This document shows positions 1 through 39,846 of a stretch of DNA of 39,846 bases, in pieces. Source of the stretch: an uncultured Oscillospiraceae bacterium (GTDB lineage: Bacteria; Bacillota; Clostridia; Oscillospirales; Oscillospiraceae); assembly GCA_905234855.1 (NCBI GenBank), contig CAJOIU010000021.1, positions 1-39,846 of the forward strand, written 5' to 3'. Both the position numbers and the translations under genes were made by a program. Positions within the stretch are counted from its first letter, which is position 1, and every line of letters starts with the position of its first letter. A model generated the notes under the pieces. The model was given only the letters and a program-made list of their open reading frames with translations, did not search any database and was not told where the DNA came from.

Positions 1-451
1 TTCAAATATTGGCAGTCACATTATATCACAGCATAACAGTTTGACACAAGCTTGGATTGCAGCTATTGTTTACTTTTCTTTTCACCATCTTGATCGGATG
101 ACGAAATATATAGTCCTGGACGGCCTTGGTCGCTCTGAAGGCCTTATCAAAGCTCTGGTTGTTTTTCTCCGCAGTAAAGATACTGCTGTTTCTATTGGCA
201 CAGGTACTGGAAAAAACGTGAAGCCGGACGGCTGAAAACGCATCTTTCCGAACTGGACGCGGCGTAGTCCAGAAAAAACTGAAAACTCTCCACATTTGAC
301 GCCTTCCCACAGGCTGGCGTCTGTGAAAGTGCGCCCAAAACGCGGAAGTTTTCCACATTTCGGGCGCGCTTTTTCAATTCTTGCTTATCCTGATGGCAGA
401 AAAGAGCGCGTCACATAAATTTCCATTCTGCAACGCGCCCTGTTTTTCGTC
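1..451. other. Non-coding stretch at left edge
   Basis: No convincing gene is seen. Short open frames exist on both strands, but none has a ribosome binding site or a recognisable sequence. The stretch holds one small hairpin (298-321, arms GACGCC/GGCGTC) and a rho-independent terminator (329-374), which suggests that a plus-strand transcript from a gene left of the window ends here. The heptamer ACATTTY preceded by TTCC/CTCC occurs twice (near 289 and 351). Confidence 0.5.
329..374 (+). terminator. Rho-independent terminator
   Basis: Arms GTGCGCCC (329-336) and GGGCGCGC (362-369) form an 8-bp stem with one G-U pair and are followed by five T. The 25-nt loop contains its own small GGAA/TTCC hairpin. 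It would end a plus-strand transcript entering from the left. Confidence 0.5.
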
Positions 452-742
452 TCACCACCGTTCGTTATAACCGTAGGTGCGGCCATTGTCCACAATGTGA
501 GATACAGAGTCTCCGTATGAATGGCCAGAGTATCTTTCAGAATCTATGAATTTCTCCCAATCGGTCTGAGATGAGTAAGAAAAGGACGAACCGCCGTCGT
601 CATCATCATAATATGGACGTGAGGGTCGAGGAGGGGTGGACGGTACTCCCAGCTCATCGCGAAACAGTTTGGGGATGGCGACGAACAGGGCGACGATAAT
701 GATCACGCCGCTCGCAACGGCAAGCCAAGCGAGTAATGACAT
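452..742 (-). CDS. Small single-pass membrane protein, unknown
   Basis: A 96-aa protein. The start is placed at 742 because AGGAAA lies about 9 nt upstream; an in-frame start at 781 would add 13 polar residues and lacks a clear ribosome binding site. Residues about 3-26 form one hydrophobic membrane helix (LLAWLAVASGVIIIVALFVA), followed by a basic/polar stretch, a Pro-rich segment and a run of four Asp with Gly/Ser. The C-terminal half is rich in Ser, Tyr, Asp and Arg. The likely topology is an N-terminal anchor with a soluble acidic tail. No family is recognised. It is the leftmost gene of the integrative element and faces away from the integrase, with a good -10 box at 807-812. Confidence 0.6.
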   Translation of the reverse strand: MSLLAWLAVASGVIIIVALFVAIPKLFRDELGVPSTPPRPSRPYYDDDDGGSSFSYSSQTDWEKFIDSERYSGHSYGDSVSHIVDNGRTYGYNERW

Positions 743-806
743 AGCAAATTTTCCTTTCTGTTTTGAACAAAAATTCATCAAAGATCTGTTGTGTTTTTCT
801 AGTGTT

Positions 807-812
807 ATTATA
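807..812 (-). promoter_or_regulatory. -10 box for the 452-742 gene
   Basis: On the minus strand TATAAT (807-812) lies 65 nt upstream of the start at 742. The matching -35 position (TAGCAT, 17-nt spacer) is poor, so the promoter may need an activator. Confidence 0.4.
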
Positions 813-889
813 CTATAATCGCGCCGTTTATGCTATAGTTTGAGCCAAATTTCTCGAAAAAATTCTTTGCTGTTTTCGTGATGTTCGCG

Positions 890-944
890 CAGAATTTCTG
901 AGCAATTTTCGTTCTGCTTTCAAGCCGGATCAGCAGAATTTCTG
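890..944. repeat. Two CAGAATTTCTG palindromes 44 bp apart
   Basis: CAGAATTTCTG occurs at 890-900 and 934-944. Each is a perfect 5+1+5 inverted repeat, and both are followed by A(G/A)CAA. The 44-bp period is about four helical turns, so both sites would face the same side of the DNA. They lie between the divergent promoters at 807 and 1054 and look like operator sites. Confidence 0.5.
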
Positions 945-1053
945 AACAAGATTTTTGGCGTGTTAATAATTTAGACATAACATTTTTTTCGGTTTTTGTT
1001 CAGCTTCTAAGCCGTTCCGACCAACTTTTTTCGAAAAATTTCGACCAAAACCG

Positions 1054-1082
1054 TTGCCAGACGGCCGGGGATCTGGTATAAT
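1054..1082 (+). promoter_or_regulatory. Sigma-A promoter of the small RNA
   Basis: TTGCCA (1054-1059), a 17-nt spacer and TATAAT (1077-1082), with a TGG extension directly before the -10. Transcription would start near 1089. The next plus-strand gene starts at 1484, beyond a terminator. Confidence 0.75.
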
Positions 1083-1088
1083 CAAGAC

Positions 1089-1197
1089 ATAAAATTGAAT
1101 AGAAATTACACGATGATTTTTGCTTTTTGAGATGCACGCAGACGGCGTGGGTACTGTGGAGATGATTCTCCAGATCAGTATACCCATGCCGTTTTTT
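1089..1197 (+). ncRNA. Putative small RNA, about 110 nt
   Basis: A strong promoter (1054-1082) is followed after about 60 nt by a large rho-independent terminator and no open frame with a ribosome binding site, so the unit encodes a short RNA of about 110 nt. The 5' half is AT-rich and unstructured; the 3' half is a long two-tier hairpin. It lies about 100 nt upstream of the 22-bp repeats. Possible roles are a regulatory or counter-transcribed RNA of the element, or an attenuated leader of the operon beginning at 1484. No known RNA family is recognised. The 5' end is inferred from the promoter. Confidence 0.5.
1142..1197 (+). terminator. Two-tier terminator hairpin of the small RNA
   Basis: Outer arms ACGGCGTGGGTA (1142-1153) and TACCCATGCCGT (1181-1192) pair over 12 bp with one G-U. 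An inner TGGAGA/TCTCCA hairpin (1157-1172) closes a TGAT tetraloop. T follows at 1192-1197. Confidence 0.75.
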
Positions 1198-1290
1198 GTT
1201 GGAATTTGCGCTGGCGTGGCCAACAACCTCACTCAATCGAACCACCAAAAACCACTCCTCAGATGCCGTTTACGGGCTAAAAACCACCGG

Positions 1291-1366
1291 TAAATCGTTG
1301 CAGGACCATAGGAGATTAGCTGCAAAACCCATGTCAAATCGTTGCAGAACCTATGTAAATCAGTTG
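1291..1366. repeat. 22-bp iteron-like direct repeats, about 3.5 copies
   Basis: Three contiguous 22-bp units at 1291-1312, 1313-1334 and 1335-1356 and a partial fourth (1357-1366) share the core AAATCGTTGCAGAACC-ATGT. Units 1 and 3 are closest; unit 2 is more diverged but keeps the register (CTGCAAAACC-CATGT). The exact 22-bp spacing without gaps argues for a protein-binding array rather than chance. No replication gene lies next to it. The array sits 118 nt upstream of the first small gene. Confidence 0.55.
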
Positions 1367-1483
1367 TTTTTTCGGATACAACGAAAAAGCATCATTTTTG
1401 ACCCGTGGAATTCGGTATTTTCAAGGGGTTGAGCGGTGTCGATATCATCAGCACATAAAACTGATACAAAAAGGAGGACACAT

Positions 1484-1744
1484 ATGGAGGACAGATTTGA
1501 CAGGCTCTGCGATCAGATCCACGAGTATATCGCTGCATGCAGACTTGATGGGTACGTGCTACTATATCACGGTTGCTCGATCCTCGTTTACCCCTGCATG
1601 TCGGCATTCAATGTTGAGGTCAAGAGCCTCGATGGGCCGTACGACATCGCCAGTCATGCCGATACACTCGACGAAGCAGTCCAACTCGGAATGGAGATGG
1701 CTGAAGACCGAGACTGGTTCGAAGGGAGAGGTGATGTGCGATGA
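1484..1744 (+). CDS. Small protein of the element, unknown
   Basis: An 86-aa acidic protein. The start at 1484 is preceded by AAGGAGG six nt upstream; an in-frame start further left lacks this. The sequence mixes an N-terminal helix (EDRFDRLCDQIHEYIAACRL) with a likely beta segment (YVLLYHGCSILVYP) and a C-terminal helix (DTLDEAVQLGMEMAEDRDWF). There is no membrane segment and no family I recognise. It is the first of four genes that overlap or touch and run into the integrase, so all are probably co-transcribed. Its stop overlaps the next start by ATGA. Confidence 0.7.
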   Translation: MEDRFDRLCDQIHEYIAACRLDGYVLLYHGCSILVYPCMSAFNVEVKSLDGPYDIASHADTLDEAVQLGMEMAEDRDWFEGRGDVR

Positions 1745-2076
1745 CAGATGTGCAGATTAGAGCTATCGGTGCAGCGTATGCAAGGAGGTTGGAGCGTTAT
1801 ACGGACACTATGTCTCAAGATCGTGCTGCCCGCGGACGTGTCGAGAGCTACATCACAGCATGGACCACATGCCTACATAATCAACTGGGGTCATTCCATA
1901 CACAGTGTGCTGTGACTTCATTTTTGACTCTCTATACCATCCTGCACGATGCATACGGCATCACGATCGATGAAATCGTTGCGGGTAAGCCAGACAAAGA
2001 GCGGCTTAACAGCATCATTGATACATATCTAAAGAATAAAATTAAAAAGGATGATATAAATGACCAAAACGATTGA
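1741..2076 (+). CDS. Small helical protein of the element, unknown
   Basis: A 111-aa protein whose ATG overlaps the preceding stop (ATGA), with AGGGAGAGGTG just upstream. The sequence is predicted mostly helical, with three blocks (about residues 3-45, 46-72 and 76-105) and a lysine/aspartate-rich tail (KNKIKKDDINDQND). It has no cysteine motif and no membrane segment. No family is recognised. Its 3' end overlaps the next gene by 17 nt. Confidence 0.65.
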   Translation: MTDVQIRAIGAAYARRLERYTDTMSQDRAARGRVESYITAWTTCLHNQLGSFHTQCAVTSFLTLYTILHDAYGITIDEIVAGKPDKERLNSIIDTYLKNKIKKDDINDQND

Positions 2077-2254
2077 ATACCCGCACTGTACCATCTCAGT
2101 GTATCCTCATCGCGGTCGGTGGCAAATCGAGCTGGTTCATGCCGGGGCAGATCATCCAATAGTTTTTGACAGCGCCCCGACACAAGGTATTGCCGAGACA
2201 ACTGCACGATGTATCGCGCGAACTGTGTCGGGCGAATCGTTACACTATGTGTGA
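2060..2254 (+). CDS. Small beta-type protein of the element, unknown
   Basis: A 64-aa protein starting 17 nt inside the preceding gene. AAAAAGGATG lies about 7 nt upstream and supports this start. The pattern ISVYPHRGRWQIELVHAG...IVFDSA suggests a short beta sheet followed by a helix (AETTARCIARTVSG), a layout common in small element-encoded proteins. No family is recognised. Translational coupling to the upstream gene is likely. Confidence 0.6.
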   Translation: MTKTIEYPHCTISVYPHRGRWQIELVHAGADHPIVFDSAPTQGIAETTARCIARTVSGESLHYV

Positions 2255-2414
2255 GATCACAGTGACAGTACCGGAGCATATCCGAATCGTTGCGGTCGAG
2301 ATGGTCGAGATTAGACACGGAACGGATCAAACACCCGTGATGATAGAGCTGCCGACCGGGCTGAGAGTCAAACAGATCGTGCTCGAACCAACACACAGTA
2401 GGGAGAAGAAGTGA
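2247..2414 (+). CDS. Very small protein preceding integrase, unknown
   Basis: A 55-aa protein if started at the ATG at 2247, which overlaps the preceding gene by 8 nt. An earlier in-frame start at 2166 would run almost wholly inside the preceding gene and is less likely. There is no clear ribosome binding site, so expression would depend on coupling. The protein has alternating hydrophobic residues (ITVTVPEHIRIVAVEMVEI) consistent with a beta fold. The position directly before the integrase is where excisionase (recombination directionality) genes often sit, but it lacks an obvious helix-turn-helix. Confidence 0.45.
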   Translation: MCEITVTVPEHIRIVAVEMVEIRHGTDQTPVMIELPTGLRVKQIVLEPTHSREKK

Positions 2415-3589
2415 TGGCTGGAATCAATTACAAGTCATTGTTTGCATATGACAAGAGCCGAAAGCTCTATCACAAAACGATCACGGTGCAGAACGCGGAC
2501 GGAACCACGATGCGAAAAAAATTCACGGCGAAAGATCCCAAAGAATTGTACAACCGCCTCCATGAATTCGAACACTCAGGCCGAACCACTAAGCAATTTG
2601 TGACGGTGGAGAAAATGCTCGACCTATGGCTAGAAGAAAAAGAGCGCGAATGCCGCCATGGCACTCTCCGCTCCTACGAACCAACCTGTAAACAATGGCA
2701 ACCGCTCTATGCTATGCGAGTCGATCAGCTGACGACCGATACCATACAATCACGACTCCAACAGATGCACGATGACGGCCTCAGTGCAAAGACGATCAAG
2801 ACTGCCCGGTCATGTCTCCGTATGGCATATGACTGGATTAGGCCGCAGTATCATGGGGCACTCGCCAACCCAGTCAAAGAAGCCAAACTCCCGAGAGGTA
2901 TGAAGAGCACGAAAAGGCACGCACCGACGGAAGACGAAACGAAACGGATCATCGATAGCGTCAATTGTTACTTCGGCTTTTTCTATTTTATGCTATTGTA
3001 TACTGGCATGAGACGGGGCGAACTGTTAGGACTCCGATGGGATGATGTCGGCTTAGAAATGAAAAGAATCAATATCTCCCACGGTGTCACATTTAAATAC
3101 GGTAAACCGATCGTGGGTCCGCTGAAAACTGAATCCTCCGTCCGACAAATACCCATACTGCCTCCGTTGCTGGATGAACTCCAAAAGCGCCGACCAGACG
3201 ACTGGAAAGGAAAATATGTTTTTCCTGCTCCGACCGACGCGTATAGCCCGATGCCAGAGTCAACTCTGAAAAGACACGAGATGCACTACTGTATAGAAGC
3301 TGGTTTCGTCAAAGTAACAGAAAAGAAAAGGACAAAGAAGGATGGTTCGGAGAAAGTACAACCTGCCTACCACTCGACGATCACGCCTCATATGATGCGG
3401 CACGGAACGGCTACCCTTTGTTATGAGGCCGGGGTCGACGTCATGACAACCGCCGCTCTGCTTGGGCACGCAGACACAAGAGTCACGCAAGAGATCTATA
3501 CCGATCTCAGACAACGACACCAGCAAGTCGAACTGCAAAAACTAGAACAGTACATGGCTGAAAACTACAACAAGCCGTCTCAATCGTGA
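2414..3589 (+). CDS. int: Tyrosine recombinase/integrase
   Basis: A 391-aa site-specific recombinase that integrates and excises the element. The ATG at 2414 is preferred over the GTG at 2411 for its spacing from GGGAGAAG, and it overlaps the previous stop by one base. An N-terminal beta-rich arm-binding region (about residues 1-55) is followed by a SAM-like core-binding domain (about 60-155) and the catalytic domain (about 165-385). The catalytic set is visible: Arg200 in GMRRGELLG, a Lys in the LKTESSVRQIP hairpin, His326 and Arg329 in HMMRH, His352 in LLGH, and the nucleophile Tyr362 in EIYTDL. It reads toward the 3' end of tRNA-Arg, the probable attachment site. It appears intact and complete. 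Confidence 0.93.
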   Translation: MAGINYKSLFAYDKSRKLYHKTITVQNADGTTMRKKFTAKDPKELYNRLHEFEHSGRTTKQFVTVEKMLDLWLEEKERECRHGTLRSYEPTCKQWQPLYAMRVDQLTTDTIQSRLQQMHDDGLSAKTIKTARSCLRMAYDWIRPQYHGALANPVKEAKLPRGMKSTKRHAPTEDETKRIIDSVNCYFGFFYFMLLYTGMRRGELLGLRWDDVGLEMKRINISHGVTFKYGKPIVGPLKTESSVRQIPILPPLLDELQKRRPDDWKGKYVFPAPTDAYSPMPESTLKRHEMHYCIEAGFVKVTEKKRTKKDGSEKVQPAYHSTITPHMMRHGTATLCYEAGVDVMTTAALLGHADTRVTQEIYTDLRQRHQQVELQKLEQYMAENYNKPSQS

Positions 3590-3603
3590 GACGGCTCTTT
3601 TTT
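3573..3603 (+). terminator. Terminator of the integrase operon
   Basis: Perfect 10-bp arms AGCCGTCTCA (3573-3582) and TGAGACGGCT (3587-3596) with an ATCG loop are followed by CTTTTTT. The integrase stop codon lies in the right arm, so the terminator begins inside the gene. Confidence 0.9.
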
Positions 3604-3683
3604 CACAATTATCAACCTATTGAAATGGTAGGGAAGTGTATACTTTAGTGTCACGGTTTGTATGCACTAACACACTGCTTGGA

Positions 3684-3734
3684 GCGTTCAATCTAATCCA
3701 GCCGGCCACAGGCCGGCTTAATTCAATTGAACGC
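3684..3734. repeat. 51-bp near-palindrome between integrase and tRNA
   Basis: Outer arms GCGTTCAAT (3684-3692) and ATTGAACGC (3726-3734) enclose a partly paired 7-nt interval on each side and inner arms AGCCGGCC (3700-3707) and GGCCGGCT (3711-3718) with an ACA loop. No T tract follows on either strand, so it is not an ordinary terminator. It could be a recombinase or cruciform site at the element end. Confidence 0.55.
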
Positions 3735-3763
3735 CAAAACACCGCAAACCCGCATGAATACAA

Positions 3764-3796
3764 TAAAAATTGGATCGATACATGTTGCATCGATCC
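3764..3796 (-). terminator. Terminator of tRNA-Arg
   Basis: Read on the minus strand, GGATCGAT, a 9-nt loop and ATCGATCC (3772-3779 with 3789-3796) are followed by AATTTTTATT. It lies about 10 nt after the CCA end of tRNA-Arg. Confidence 0.8.
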
Positions 3797-3805
3797 GATT
3801 CATTT

Positions 3806-3882
3806 TGGCACGGCATGAGGGATTCGAACCCCCGGCCTTCTGGTCCGTAGCCAGACGCTCTATCCAGCTGAGCTAATGCCGC
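3806..3882 (-). tRNA. tRNA-Arg (anticodon ACG)
   Basis: A 77-nt cloverleaf with encoded CCA (3806-3808). The anticodon stem TCTGG/CCAGA closes the loop CTACGGA, giving anticodon ACG, which reads CGU and, after A-to-I editing, CGC/CGA. The T loop is TTCGAAT. The acceptor arms GCGGCAT and ATGCCGT pair with a G1-U72 wobble at the end of the helix, which is unusual and lies in the half that an integrating element can replace. The gene has its own promoter (3895-3923) and terminator (3764-3796). Its 3' end faces the integrase, the usual arrangement for tRNA attachment sites. Confidence 0.95.
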
Positions 3883-3894
3883 TCGCGCCCAGCT

Positions 3895-3923
3895 ATAATA
3901 GCATAAGCAAAACCAGAATGCAA
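3895..3923 (-). promoter_or_regulatory. Promoter of tRNA-Arg
   Basis: On the minus strand TTGCAT (3918-3923), a 17-nt spacer and TATTAT (3895-3900), ending 12 nt before the mature 5' end of the tRNA. Confidence 0.8.
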
Positions 3924-3949
3924 GAGGTTTTTTCAAATTTTCCCCTTTT

Positions 3950-4114
3950 TCAGAGGCCGATGGTGTTGGCAACGTTTTCCACTACGTCGCCGACGGAGCG
4001 GATTGCCTTGCCGATGGTGCTGGATTTCTGTTTCTTCGGCGCGGCGACCATGCCAACCATGGAGCCGACCGCGAGGCCGACGCCCATTCCTTTGATAAAC
4101 GACATTTTGTTCAT
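3950..4114 (-). CDS. 54-aa YtxH-like small protein
   Basis: Read on the minus strand from ATG at 4114, this gives a clean 54-residue protein. It begins MNKMSFIKGMGVGLAVGSMVGM, continues with a Lys/Gln/Ser stretch (PKKQKSS) and ends in an amphipathic helix (IGKAIRSVGDVVENVANTIGL). GAGGGG lies about 8 nt upstream. A short glycine-rich hydrophobic N-terminus followed by an amphipathic helix is the general layout of YtxH-like and related small membrane-associated proteins of Firmicutes; the family match is tentative. The function is unknown; it probably sits at the membrane. It ends upstream of and in the same direction as tRNA-Arg and is divergent from the ymdB operon. Confidence 0.6.
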   Translation of the reverse strand: MNKMSFIKGMGVGLAVGSMVGMVAAPKKQKSSTIGKAIRSVGDVVENVANTIGL

Positions 4115-4186
4115 TCTTTACCCCTCTTTCATCCCTAGTATTTCCCGCGGCTTTGTGATATATTACCTGTAAAGCAAAAAACACGC

Positions 4187-4202
4187 TTCCATATTTATGG
4201 AA
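4187..4202. promoter_or_regulatory. Inverted repeat before the ymdB ribosome binding site
   Basis: TTCCATA (4187-4193) and TATGGAA (4196-4202) form a perfect 7-bp hairpin with a 2-nt loop, or a duplex palindrome. It ends 3 nt before the AAGGAG ribosome binding site (4206-4211) of the next gene. It could be an operator or an RNA element affecting translation. No clear promoter was found for this operon. Confidence 0.4.
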
Positions 4203-4217: not shown

Positions 4218-4997
4218 ATGATCATCAGCATTCTGGCCGTCGGCGACGTATGCGGCGTGCCCGGCCTGACTTTTTTGGAAAAGCGCCTGCGTACCGTCCA
4301 GCGGGAATACGGCGTGGCCTTCACCGTGGTGAACGGCGAAAACGCCAATGTCGTTGGCGTGACGCCGGAGCAATGCGACCGCATCTTCAACGCCGGCGCG
4401 GATGTCATCACCCTCGGCAACCATACATGGGTACGCTGGGAGCTGCAGCCGTATCTGGCGGACAATGTCCGGGTCATTCGGCCGATCAATTACGCGCCGC
4501 AATGTCCGGGACGCGGTTTCGGCGTATACCGCACGCCCTTCGGCGAGATCTGCGTCGTCAACGCCCTCGGTCGGTTCACCCTCGACGCCAATACGGACAA
4601 CCCCTTTGTGGAGGTGGACAGGCTCTTGGAGGAGCTGTCGCCCCGGCCGAAGATCATCCTGCTCGATATGCATGCAGAGGCCACCAGCGAGCGGCTGGCC
4701 ATGGGCTATTTCCTCGATGGGCGCGTGAGCGCCGTTTGGGGGACGCATACCCATGTGCAGACCTCGGACGCCGCCGTGCTGCCCGGCGGCACGGGCTACA
4801 TAAGCGACCTCGGCATGACGGGCGCAGCCCGCAGCGTGCTGGGTATCGACGTGGAGCAGTCGATAAATAAGTTTCTCGGCGATCCGCCCCGGCGTTACAA
4901 GTCCGGCGGCGGGCCGGGAAAGATGGAATGTTGCCTGTTCGATATCGACACCGAAACCGGCCGCTGCGTCAAGGCTGAGGCGCTGAGGATAGAATGA
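4218..4997 (+). CDS. ymdB: YmdB-family metallophosphoesterase
   Basis: A 259-aa cytoplasmic phosphodiesterase of the YmdB/TIGR00282 family. Bacillus YmdB hydrolyses 2',3'-cyclic nucleotides and influences biofilm versus motility decisions. The metal-binding signature is complete: Asp10 in VGDVCG, Glu41/Asn42 in VNGENAN, Asn68-His69 in LGNHTW, DMHAEATSE in the middle, and GTHTHVQT near residue 180. The length matches the family. The start has AAGGAG 6 nt upstream. It overlaps the next gene by ATGA and so heads a five-gene operon. In many Firmicutes ymdB follows the RNase Y gene; here that gene is absent and the partners are a second metallophosphoesterase and its ATPase. Confidence 0.9.
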   Translation: MIISILAVGDVCGVPGLTFLEKRLRTVQREYGVAFTVVNGENANVVGVTPEQCDRIFNAGADVITLGNHTWVRWELQPYLADNVRVIRPINYAPQCPGRGFGVYRTPFGEICVVNALGRFTLDANTDNPFVEVDRLLEELSPRPKIILLDMHAEATSERLAMGYFLDGRVSAVWGTHTHVQTSDAAVLPGGTGYISDLGMTGAARSVLGIDVEQSINKFLGDPPRRYKSGGGPGKMECCLFDIDTETGRCVKAEALRIE

Positions 4998-26411: not shown

Positions 26412-28223
26412 ATGGCGAATCTGAGAAATATTGCGATCATTGCCCATGTCGACCACGGCAAGACCACACTGGTTGACGCGATGCTTGGTCAGTCCGGCGC
26501 GTTCCGCGCCAATCAGCAGGTGGCCGAGCGCGTGATGGATTCCGGCGATCTTGAACGCGAGCGCGGTATCACCATTCTGGCGAAAAATACCGCCATCCAT
26601 TACGGCGACACGAAGATCAACATCGTCGATACCCCGGGACACGCCGATTTCGGCGGCGAGGTGGAGCGCATCCTGAAGATGGTGAACGGCGTGCTGCTTT
26701 TGGTGGACGCGGCGGAGGGGCCGATGCCGCAGACGCGCTTCGTGCTGGAGCGGGCGCTGCAGCTCGGGCACAAAGTGATCGTCGTGGTGAACAAGATCGA
26801 CCGCCCCGATCAGCGGGTGTACGAGGTCATCGACGAGGTGCTGGAGCTTCTGATGGATCTCGGCTGCACGGATGAGCAGCTCGATTCCCCGATGCTGTTC
26901 GCCTCTGCGCGGCAGGGGATCTGCTCCGTCTCGCCGGAGGTGCAGGGTACGGACCTGAAGCCGCTCTTCGATGCGATCGTGGAGTATATCCCGGAGCCCG
27001 ATCAGCCGGTGGACGAGCCGTTCCAGATGCTCGTGAGCTCTATCGATTATAACGAATACGTCGGCCGCATCGCCATCGGACGCATCGAGCGGGGCTGCAT
27101 CCGCCAGAACGAGGAGATCGTCGTTTGCGACTACCACGGCGACCGCCCGACGCGCAAGGCCAAGGCCGTGAGCCTTTATGAGTTCGAGGCGCTGGGCAAA
27201 GCGCCCGTCACCGAGGCCTTTGCCGGCAATATCATCGCCATGAGCGGCATCGGCGACGTCACTATCGGCGATACTGTCTGCGCCCCCGCTGCGGTGGAGC
27301 CGCTGCCGTTCGTAAAGATCTCCGCCCCGACCATCGAGATGACCTTCTCGGTAAACGACAGTCCCTATGCCGGGCGCGAGGGCAAGTGGGTCACGAGCCG
27401 CAACATTCGCGACCGGCTCATGCAGGAGACCCTCAAGGACGTGTCCCTGCGCGTGACGGAGACCCAGTCCACGGACGCCTTCAACGTGGCCGGACGCGGC
27501 GAGATGCACCTTTCCATCCTCATCGAGACGATGCGTCGGGAAGGGTATGAGTTCCAAGTATCTCCCGCGCGCGTGCTGTTCAAGGAGATCGACGGGAAGA
27601 CCTGCGAGCCGATGGAGCGCGTCGTTCTGGACGTGCCGTCGGAATGCGTAGGCTCCGTTATGGAAAAGCTTGGACAGCGTAAGGCGGAGTTTTTGCAGAT
27701 GAACCCCGTCGGTATGCGCATGAAGCTCGAATTTCTCGTGCCGACGCGCGGACTGTTCGGTTATCGCAGCGAGTTTCTTACCGATACGCGCGGCGAGGGC
27801 ATCATGGCCTCCGTGTTCGATTCCTATGCGCCGCTGAAGGGCGAGGTGAAGCGCCGCAACACCGGCTCCCTCGTCGCGTTCGAGACCGGCGAGGCGCTGG
27901 CCTACGGCCTGTGGAACGCGCAGGAGCGCGGCGCGCTGTTCATCAGCCCCGGCACGGCGGTATATGCGGGCATGATCGTCGGCGAAAGCCCCAAGAAGGA
28001 GGACATCGTCGTGAACGTCTGCCGCGCCAAGCATCTGACGAATACCCGCGCCTCCGGCTCCGACGAGGCGCTGAGGCTCGTGCCGCCGAAGCAGATGAGC
28101 TTGGAGCAATGCCTTGAATTCATGGCGGACGACGAGCTTTTGGAGGTCACGCCGGAGCATCTGCGCCTGCGCAAGTCCATCCTGAACCACGAAAAGCGCA
28201 TGAAAAGCGAGCATCGGAAGTAA
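26412..28223 (+). CDS. typA: Translational GTPase TypA/BipA
   Basis: A 603-aa ribosome-binding GTPase involved in stress adaptation and large-subunit assembly. GTPase motifs: AHVDHGKTT (11-19), the switch sequence ERERGIT near 50, DTPGH near 75 and NKID near 130. These are followed by EF-G-like domains II, III and V and the TypA-specific C-terminal domain (from about residue 480: [39 protein letters not shown]). The length is normal (about 605). AAAGGAAG lies about 9 nt before the ATG. A 22-bp tandem duplication overlaps its last codons. Confidence 0.96.
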
Positions 28224-28246
28224 AAAAAGCGAGCATCGGAAGCAAA
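28203..28246. repeat. 22-bp tandem duplication at the typA stop
   Basis: AGCGAGCATCGGAAG occurs at 28206-28220 and again at 28228-28242, flanked by A runs, with a 22-bp period. The first copy encodes the last residues and stop (TAA) of typA; in the second copy TAA has become CAA. Confidence 0.85.
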
Positions 28247-28254
28247 AAACGTGT

Positions 28255-32958: not shown

Positions 32959-34479
32959 ATGATCTGTCCATATTGCGGCGCATCCATCGAGGATGGAGCG
33001 AGATTCTGCTCCGAATGCGGAAATCAGCAGATGCCGCCGAACAAACCCGCCCAAAGCTTCTGTCCCTACTGCGGGGCGGCGCAGGAGGAGGGATCCGTCT
33101 TCTGCGATACCTGCGGAAAAAAGCTGGACGGCTCCGCTGCAGCCGATCCCCCGCAGGAACCCTCGCCGACAGGCTATTCCGCTCCCGGAACACCGTTGGG
33201 CTATTCCGTTCCCGGATCGCAGACGGGCTTCTCCGTTCCGAAAGCGGCAAGCAGCCGGAGCGAGAGTACATATAACCGGGTGAAAACGGGCGGCGCAGCC
33301 CGTGATTTCCGCGTCACCGCAAAGCCGGAAATGCGCATCTTGGGTATCCCCGTCCGGGGCAAAGCCATGTGGATCGTCCTCGGCGTGATCGCGGCGGCGG
33401 TGATCGCCCTTGTGGTGTTTACAAAACTCGGCGGGGAGAAGGAGCCTGTCGAGGATAGCGCAGCGCGCTCCTTCGGGATGTCGGAGAAGACCGCGGAAGC
33501 GAGGGAGGACGGGGAGGAACCCCTGCGGGAAGGCAGCGTGAGCAGTCTGATGGAAAGCGCGGCCAAGGCAAAGCAGGCGGCGCTGGAAGAGCAGGCGCTG
33601 GAAGAGCAGGCGGGGGAAGAGGAGACAGCCCCCGAGCCGACATCGGATCCCACCCCCGAGCCGACACCGAAAGCGGCAGAGAAGCCGACGATCACGACGC
33701 AGCCGAAGGATCAGACGGCGGCGGAGGGCGAAACGGCGACCTTTGCTGTGGAAGCTGACGGCGATGAGCTCACCTATCAATGGCAGTATAAAAAGAGCGA
33801 CGGAACGTGGCAGAATATAACGAACAGCGACTATACGGGATTGAAGAGCGCCAAGATGACGGTGCCTGCAACTACGGGACGCAACGGGATGCAGTTCCGC
33901 TGCGTGGTGACGAATGACGCGGGATCGGTAAGATCGGAAACTGCGAAGCTGACGGTGACGGCTTCGACGCCGAAGCCGACGGCCAAGCCGACCGATACGC
34001 CGGCGCCGACGCCCCGATACGACCGAAACGACTACTCCACAACGGAGCAGCCGACGCTCGCGGATTTCCAATGGGTGACATATGATATTCTCCATGGCAG
34101 TCGGCCGGAGGGCTTGGAAAAGCTCAAATATACCGAGGCCGCCGGCGGCTGGAAGTGCTATATCCTCGACGATCCGAACGGTGAATACGACGCCGTGGCG
34201 GAACATTTCCTAAATGTCGATATCAAGGGGAAATATACGGATGTCACGGTGACCTTCGACTGGATCTATACCTTCATCGGCGCGGAGGGCGAGGGCTATG
34301 ACGACAACAGCCCCGATTCTACCTTTAAGGGCGCTTGGTCAGGCGGCGTGATCGAGGCGACCGGCTCGGGCAACGTGACCTTTACTGACTTCTATTATCT
34401 GGACGGCAAGGAATACGCCATCGGCACGATGATGTGGCCGGACGGCATCCCCGCCGCTGTCTTCATGGTTCGCCCGTAA
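32959..34479 (+). CDS. Zinc-ribbon / membrane / Ig-like protein
   Basis: A 506-aa protein combining cytoplasmic and extracellular parts. Two zinc ribbons lie at the N-terminus (CPYC...FCSECG at about 3-21 and CPYC...FCDTCG at about 35-53). A Pro/Ser/Gly linker follows, then one membrane helix (about 136-156: MWIVLGVIAAAVIALVVF). Outside are an acidic/Pro-rich spacer with PEPTSDPTPEPTPK repeats, an Ig-like domain (about 236-335: TITTQPKDQTAAEGETATFAVEADGDELTYQWQY...FRCVVTNDAGSV) and a C-terminal domain of unknown type (about 370-506). GGGAGG lies about 8 nt before the ATG. It is probably co-transcribed with the next lipoprotein gene. Confidence 0.85.
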   Translation: MICPYCGASIEDGARFCSECGNQQMPPNKPAQSFCPYCGAAQEEGSVFCDTCGKKLDGSAAADPPQEPSPTGYSAPGTPLGYSVPGSQTGFSVPKAASSRSESTYNRVKTGGAARDFRVTAKPEMRILGIPVRGKAMWIVLGVIAAAVIALVVFTKLGGEKEPVEDSAARSFGMSEKTAEAREDGEEPLREGSVSSLMESAAKAKQAALEEQALEEQAGEEETAPEPTSDPTPEPTPKAAEKPTITTQPKDQTAAEGETATFAVEADGDELTYQWQYKKSDGTWQNITNSDYTGLKSAKMTVPATTGRNGMQFRCVVTNDAGSVRSETAKLTVTASTPKPTAKPTDTPAPTPRYDRNDYSTTEQPTLADFQWVTYDILHGSRPEGLEKLKYTEAAGGWKCYILDDPNGEYDAVAEHFLNVDIKGKYTDVTVTFDWIYTFIGAEGEGYDDNSPDSTFKGAWSGGVIEATGSGNVTFTDFYYLDGKEYAIGTMMWPDGIPAAVFMVRP

Positions 34480-39769: not shown

Positions 39770-39846
39770 CCGGGTGTGGCGAAGTTTGGTATCGCGCCTG
39801 AATGGGGTTCAGGAGGCCGCTGGTTCAAGTCCAGTCACTCGGACCA
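39770..39846 (+). tRNA. tRNA-Pro (anticodon GGG)
   Basis: A 77-nt cloverleaf ending with an encoded CCA exactly at the window edge. Acceptor arms CCGGGTG and CACTCGG pair with one G-U. The anticodon stem CCTGA/TCAGG closes the loop ATGGGGT, giving anticodon GGG with G37, as expected for proline. The T loop is TTCAAGT. Confidence 0.93.

Follow-up and report, generated by a model that had tools for sequence, protein, structure and literature searches.

The window analysed here is an entire contig (C21), 39,846 bases long, from a draft assembly of 44 contigs that totals 1.79 Mb and is 82.6% complete. Close to its left end lies a run of co-directional genes—four small open reading frames (ORF1–ORF4) and a gene for a tyrosine integrase (int)—each of which overlaps the next in one layout, with a terminator-like hairpin after int and a tRNA-Arg(acg) gene beyond it. 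The gap before this operon (782–1483) is filled by two direct repeats and a match to a sigma-70-type promoter, P1, which precedes a long stem-loop (Table 1).

Table 1. Features of the left end of the window, in order of position.
Feature	Position	Strand	Remarks
Dispersed repeat of the host genus	204–451		Contig starts beside or inside this repeat
ORF, 109 aa	452–781	−	Matches own genome only, among 35 genus genomes
AT-rich stretch	780–1050		34.5% GC at 801–1000
Second direct repeat, 44-bp (2 × 22) spacing	845–976	+	Two strong units, one weak
Sigma-70-type promoter match P1	1054–1082	+	TTGCCA-17-TATAAT, TG ahead, 11/12
Predicted short RNA, ~109 nt	1089–1197	+	Both ends predicted from promoter match and hairpin
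Long stem-loop and T-run	1140–1197	+	Stem 1140–1194, T-run 1192–1197; read as intrinsic terminator
22-bp direct-repeat array	1292–1366	+	Three gap-free degenerate copies and a poor half copy
AT-rich inverted repeat	1365–1391		Directly 3′ of array; terminator-like on + strand in scans
ORF1, 86 aa	1484–1744	+	No family; ATG at 1484 is our choice; aaggagg just upstream
ORF2, 111 aa	1741–2076	+	No family; predicted all-helical, low confidence
ORF3, 64 aa	2060–2254	+	No family
ORF4, 55 aa	2247–2414	+	No family above cut-off; ATG at 2247 is our choice
Tyrosine integrase (int), 392 aa	2411–3589	+	Open frame
Terminator-like hairpin after int	3572–3597		Found on both strands
tRNA-Arg(acg)	3806–3882	−	Putative integration target

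The integrase matched the profiles PF00589 (1.1e-19), PF02899 (2e-6) and phrog_1 (2.1e-59). For ORF1–ORF4, nothing in Pfam, NCBIfam or PADLOC passed the cut-off, nothing in PHROGs fell below E 0.09, and no DNA-binding domain was recognised in them in these family searches, which agree with a first-pass annotation of this DNA that had described four small genes of no known family with an integrase downstream. Single-sequence fold models of ORF1 and ORF2 were poor (mean pLDDT 52.6 and 62.2, respectively) and not usable; searches of solved structures with both returned nothing at E ≤ 0.001, the best fold match of ORF2 being 2rld_B (E 0.22).

The segment carrying these genes is of foreign origin. 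Its GC content is 47% (positions 1–3800) vs 60.5% from 3900 on, and it is missing from congeners: similarity to the window starts at 3797–3807, the 3′ end of the tRNA-Arg gene, in 26 of 29 congener loci (among them L053, which ends there with its contig, and L034, which gets there by a 25-nt piece) and at 3950–4048 in the remaining three, and none of the 29 matches further left, where the most that any of them carries beyond the tRNA is about 1.1 kb. We read the DNA left of about position 3805 as a foreign insertion at the tRNA 3′ end, with the integrase adjoining its target. A tRNA gene with an intact tyrosine integrase beside it, and a foreign segment that stops at the 3′ end of that gene, are what a tRNA-targeted tyrosine-recombinase integrative element would present, and the first-pass description of an integrative element, with its integrase and a dense non-coding region before the operon, holds good. 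A search for attL/attR direct repeats found no exact match of ≥9 nt to the tRNA end within 1–3740; the core pattern had one other match in the genome, on contig C17, with three mismatches. Between int and the tRNA gene, in what would be the att arm region, lies an imperfect 24-nt inverted repeat with a 3-nt spacer (3684–3734).

At the other side, positions 204–440 have an 82% identical copy on contig C9 of the same genome, and 344–451 match five places in one congener (G023), where three of the matches sit at the ends of contigs; we would guess that this dispersed repeat is possibly an insertion-sequence end. Because the contig starts at the repeat, the element is probably truncated, and part of it, possibly with an initiator, may therefore be missing. 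We set aside the contig end as the mark of a circular form, since the dispersed repeat explains the break more simply, and also a whole element ending near 1000–1300, where no copy of the att core was found. The leftward ORF beside the repeat could be served by a promoter-like match at 807–836 (ATAGCA-18-TATAAT, 9/12, with a weak first hexamer). The right end of the contig coincides exactly with the end of a tRNA-Pro gene (39770–39846), as if the assembly broke there at another insertion or repeat.

Searches for relatives of the element returned its own genome only, whether with the DNA of 700–2420 (among 60 genomes), with ORF1 and ORF2 each (among 394 genomes of the order) or with ORF1–ORF4 as a single query (among 391 genomes of the class); ORF3 and ORF4 were covered by the DNA search, the joint four-ORF query and the family libraries. 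ORF1, ORF2 and int had no relative in viral contigs in a search that reaches close relatives only, int had none in the genome_contigs collection and ORF2 had no match in phages. DNA patterns derived from the 22-bp array found, in viral contigs, six stretches resembling one related sequence, with no array within about 130 bases, and a two-unit pattern found no match there.

In a search of 60 related genomes, the top three relatives of the integrase share 35–36% identity with it; their flanks (L004, L005, L006) were considered as homologous elements and rejected, as inspection by eye found other genes there. Identity to phage integrases of phrog_1 was 24–31% among the 20 phage matches listed. 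The lowest E-values among the integrase matches listed belonged to two 6.7-kb faecal phage records (28.7% and 27.7% identity), which were likewise set aside: by eye, one holds a repressor-like HTH protein and neither has anything like the small ORFs.

The integration site itself was surveyed by anchoring on the flanking 259-aa ORF (4218–4997) and taking the best 80 of 583 named loci. The tRNA end lies to the left of the flanking gene in 43 of these best 80, and seven of the 43 have an integrase-like match in the left flank, which in five (L114, L119, L136, L137 and L161) ends 218–592 bp from the tRNA. Judged from such matches, the tRNA-Arg(acg) locus is a recurrent integration site.

Within the gap before the operon, P1 is the best of eight promoter-like sites in 1–4200 (shuffles gave a mean of 5.5) and the sole plus-strand match above 9/12 within 780–1500, so that the near-consensus promoter of the first-pass annotation stands; a weak plus-strand match (9/12) also occurs at 943–970. 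The sequence of 1088–1200 folds at −36.9 kcal/mol vs −21.0 (sd 3) for 200 shuffles, none of which was as good (z −5.30). Its stem and T-run suggest a terminator, which simple terminator scans miss because the stem is bulged, a feature that those scans apparently disallow. A short RNA ending in a large terminator had been proposed here; the strong hairpin and T-run are confirmed, whereas the ends of the RNA and its termination are predictions from the promoter match and the fold. The gathering scores of Rfam were reached in the window by the two tRNAs only, and seven weak matches in 1000–1500 (to snoRNAs, CRISPR repeats, a lncRNA and a truncated piece of SAM-II) lay below those scores and were taken as chance.

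The same RNA had been likened to the counter-transcribed RNAs of plasmids, a comparison that fails on direction: P1 runs the same way as the operon, and the promoter matches that face it score poorly (TTGAAA-19-AAAAAT, 9/12, 1424–1394; ATTCCA-17-TATACT, 8/12, 1205–1177), with none found by a stricter scan. Promoter matches between the array and ORF1 are also weak, the best being 9/12 with a 19-nt spacer at 1418–1448.

Of the two repeats, the 22-bp array scores best at period 22 from position 1292, with 43 of 66 matches across three copies (z 7.25), a score reached by none of 200 Markov sequences and none of 500 dinucleotide shuffles of 1200–1480. It had been described as 3.5 gap-free repeats; three gap-free copies are indeed present, but they are degenerate (pairwise identity 11/22, 17/22 and 15/22, or 50–77%) and the half copy, at 6/10 in register, is doubtful. 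Tandem Repeats Finder reported only 2.1 copies (1321–1366, 8% indels). The score is not unique, for two other repeats in the window score 9.28 and 9.10, and higher-scoring repeats occur in three of 20 integrase flanks of related genomes (L092, L100, L102). The unit itself is confined to the array: a search of the window with the full 22-bp unit and ≤3 mismatches finds itself only, and a weight matrix scores the three units at 25.0–29.7 and everything else in the window at ≤11.6. An 11-mer core with ≤2 mismatches is not commoner than chance (21 observed vs 24.7). The word AATCGTTGC, chosen from the array, occurs four times in the window, always on the plus strand and between 1293 and 2293, a count that none of 100 shuffles reaches; two of the four occurrences are the array itself and two lie in coding frames (ORF2 and ORF4).

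The second repeat, absent from the first-pass annotation, has its strong units at 889 and 933 (18/22, sharing 16 of 17 bases) and a weak one at 845 (11–12/22), with a palindromic core, CAGAATTTCTG. At period 44 the top-scoring stretch begins at position 856 (z 7.28), and none of 500 dinucleotide shuffles of 780–1050 was as good (largest 6.69). Tandem repeats elsewhere in the window include 22 bp × 2.1 at 28203–28249 (96% matches) and 27 bp × 2.9 at 33163–33239 (74%), and in a congener locus (L097, 4902–4964) a 21-bp repeat whose core resembles CGATAACG occurs three times (z 6.50).

We tentatively favour, as the likeliest of the readings considered but with somewhat less than even confidence, a switch region of the integrase operon in which both repeats are tandem protein-binding sites, the whole belonging to a small, otherwise unknown element integrated at tRNA-Arg. 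P1 would give a short terminated transcript, serving either as a leader attenuator or as a stand-alone small RNA; with that transcript stopping at the hairpin, little transcription would enter the operon from the left, and the operon would thus be mostly silent. Just upstream of the operon, the 22-bp array could offer tandem same-face sites to an element-encoded DNA-binding protein, and the 44-bp-spaced repeat upstream of P1 would probably bind the same protein, the spacings of 22 and 44 bp being about two and four helical turns. That protein would switch the ORF1–ORF4–int operon, most likely through the weak promoter near 1418–1448 or through altered read-through of the terminator; the weak matches between array and ORF1 might look as expected of an activated promoter. 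Protein binding, the switch and the sign of its regulation we infer from this arrangement. In favour of this reading, the five genes overlap ahead of a terminator-like hairpin, the repeats and P1 occupy the gap before them, P1 is the one plus-strand match there to exceed 9/12 and has the strong hairpin behind it, and the plus-strand AATCGTTGC words are more numerous than in any shuffle. Parallels come from PMC11963761: RdfS, which attaches to attP as well as to the rdfS promoter, controls both rdfS and intS, and BldC binds direct repeats.

Several observations count against such a switch: the copies are degenerate, the unit recurs nowhere else, family searches recognise no DNA-binding domain in ORF1–ORF4, the AATCGTTGC words divide between coding sequence and the array itself, and P1 is accompanied by the weak promoter match at 943–970. 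Nor is there an equal array at the seven other integrase-flanked tRNA-Arg loci, where no repeat reaches the score of the array (best z 6.22).

The first-pass annotation had instead read a plasmid-like control region with iterons. In its fullest form, with 845–976 and the 22-bp array as the origin of an excised circle and an initiator encoded in ORF1–ORF4 or in the missing part, we regard this as unlikely, though it has points in its favour. Class A theta origins of lactic acid bacteria are described as consisting of an AT-rich region, 3.5 iterons of 22 bp and small inverted repeats at the rep promoter (its −35 box) and ribosome-binding site (PMC4490491), preceded at some distance in lactococcal origins by a 10-bp A/T-rich repeat (PMC6458302), and the period and approximate copy number found here, downstream of AT-rich repeated DNA, resemble them. 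SGI1 offers the precedent of an integrative mobilizable element able to replicate from an iteron oriV (PMC7433901), and the start of the contig at the dispersed repeat means that the element may be truncated. Against this, the copies share only 50–77% identity, P1 and the hairpin stand between the AT-rich part and the array, and the inverted repeat at 1365–1391 sits at the end of the array, not at the ribosome-binding site. Where class A theta plasmids have a Rep gene directly after the iterons, ORF1 has no family match; the earlier remark that no RepB-like gene follows the array extends to the whole draft (82.6% complete), in which Rep_3 (PF01051), the sole Rep family searched genome-wide, had no match, the control search being positive in two of 14 control genomes, Lactococcus lactis included. 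No DnaA-like box, with one mismatch allowed, lies in 780–1480, and the five such sites across the window are as chance gives (mean 4.07). A comparison of 1040–1480 with 72,556 plasmid and 50,697 phage records found no similar DNA, and ORF1 had no match in plasmids.

On these sequence comparisons, membership among the lactococcal class A theta replicons fails, and no positive evidence marks the repeats as an origin of plasmid type in preference to binding sites of an ordinary regulator. An origin function keeps some probability because the contig end may cut the element and because SGI1 replicates from iterons; the second repeat raises it slightly, and it is reduced by the lack of a recognised initiator and by the degeneracy of the copies. 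A more specific version, in which a two-array origin would act after excision with a small initiator unlike known Rep families, encoded in the integrase operon and its expression tuned by the P1 RNA, has a low probability in our view. Among the titles and abstract openings listed in literature searches on iterons, integrative and mobilizable elements, lactococcal plasmids and excisionase control, none describes this layout; one listed paper, PMC7117683, describes theta plasmids that carry repA together with a tyrosine integrase gene.

It is also conceivable, with slightly lower probability than the origin, that the arrays are weak, partly decayed repeats that now serve no function in an inactive island, with P1 and its hairpin as an orphan transcription unit. 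The low identity among copies, the better-scoring repeats (two elsewhere in the window and those in three of 20 other integrase flanks) and the dispersed repeat at the left fit such decay, but the integrase and small ORFs keep open, overlapping frames, and both repeats beat 500 local shuffles and share a single control gap. Arm-type and Xis sites typically consist of direct repeats, and the array might accordingly serve recombination, binding the arm domain of the integrase or an excisionase among the small ORFs and so assembling or timing excision. The operon shared with int suits this idea, which nonetheless has a small probability in our judgement: some 2.4 kb separate the array from the putative att site at 3806, the tRNA-side end has no exact match of ≥9 nt in 1–3740, and operon family searches gave no match to an excisionase family. 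Repeats are found in the non-coding origins of integrative mobilizable elements, and a site at which a helper element would start transfer or packaging was considered as well; with no relaxase or terminase among the scanned window ORFs left of the tRNA, and with 1040–1480 dissimilar to the plasmid and phage records, its chance is smaller again.

Overall, the features exist, though in a weaker form than first described; they are of an ordinary kind, and their function is putative. If the region is a switch of the integrase operon, as we favour, it would show in compact and testable form how an integrase operon is controlled in a gut-type Oscillospiraceae lineage; were it an origin instead, the initiator would be a small protein outside the searched families or would sit in the missing part. 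A 22-bp repeat in about 3.5 copies does not by itself make a plasmid origin.

Among known systems, the lactococcal class A theta origins (pCI305 and pWVO2 type; extracts of PMC4490491 and PMC6458302) are alike in the repeat number and length and in the repeated AT-rich DNA upstream, and unlike in that here no Rep gene is recognised, the copies are degenerate, a promoter and hairpin are inserted and an integrase operon lies downstream. The oriV of SGI1 similarly combines direct repeats with AT-rich DNA holding short repeats in an integrating element, but its iterons measure 17 bp and it possesses a rep gene and a putative DnaA box (PMC7433901), none of which was found here, no rep being recognised in the visible part of a possibly incomplete element. 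Phages with phrog_1 integrases, including Streptococcus satellite phages, share the integrase family and differ in the small ORFs, which here have no PHROG match below that E-value of 0.09. The rdfS/intS system of ICEMlSymR7A differs in its winged-helix protein, which has no recognisable counterpart here, and its RdfS sites are without a consensus motif; it is alike in that integrase expression would be expected to come under an element-encoded DNA-binding protein (extracts of PMC11963761).
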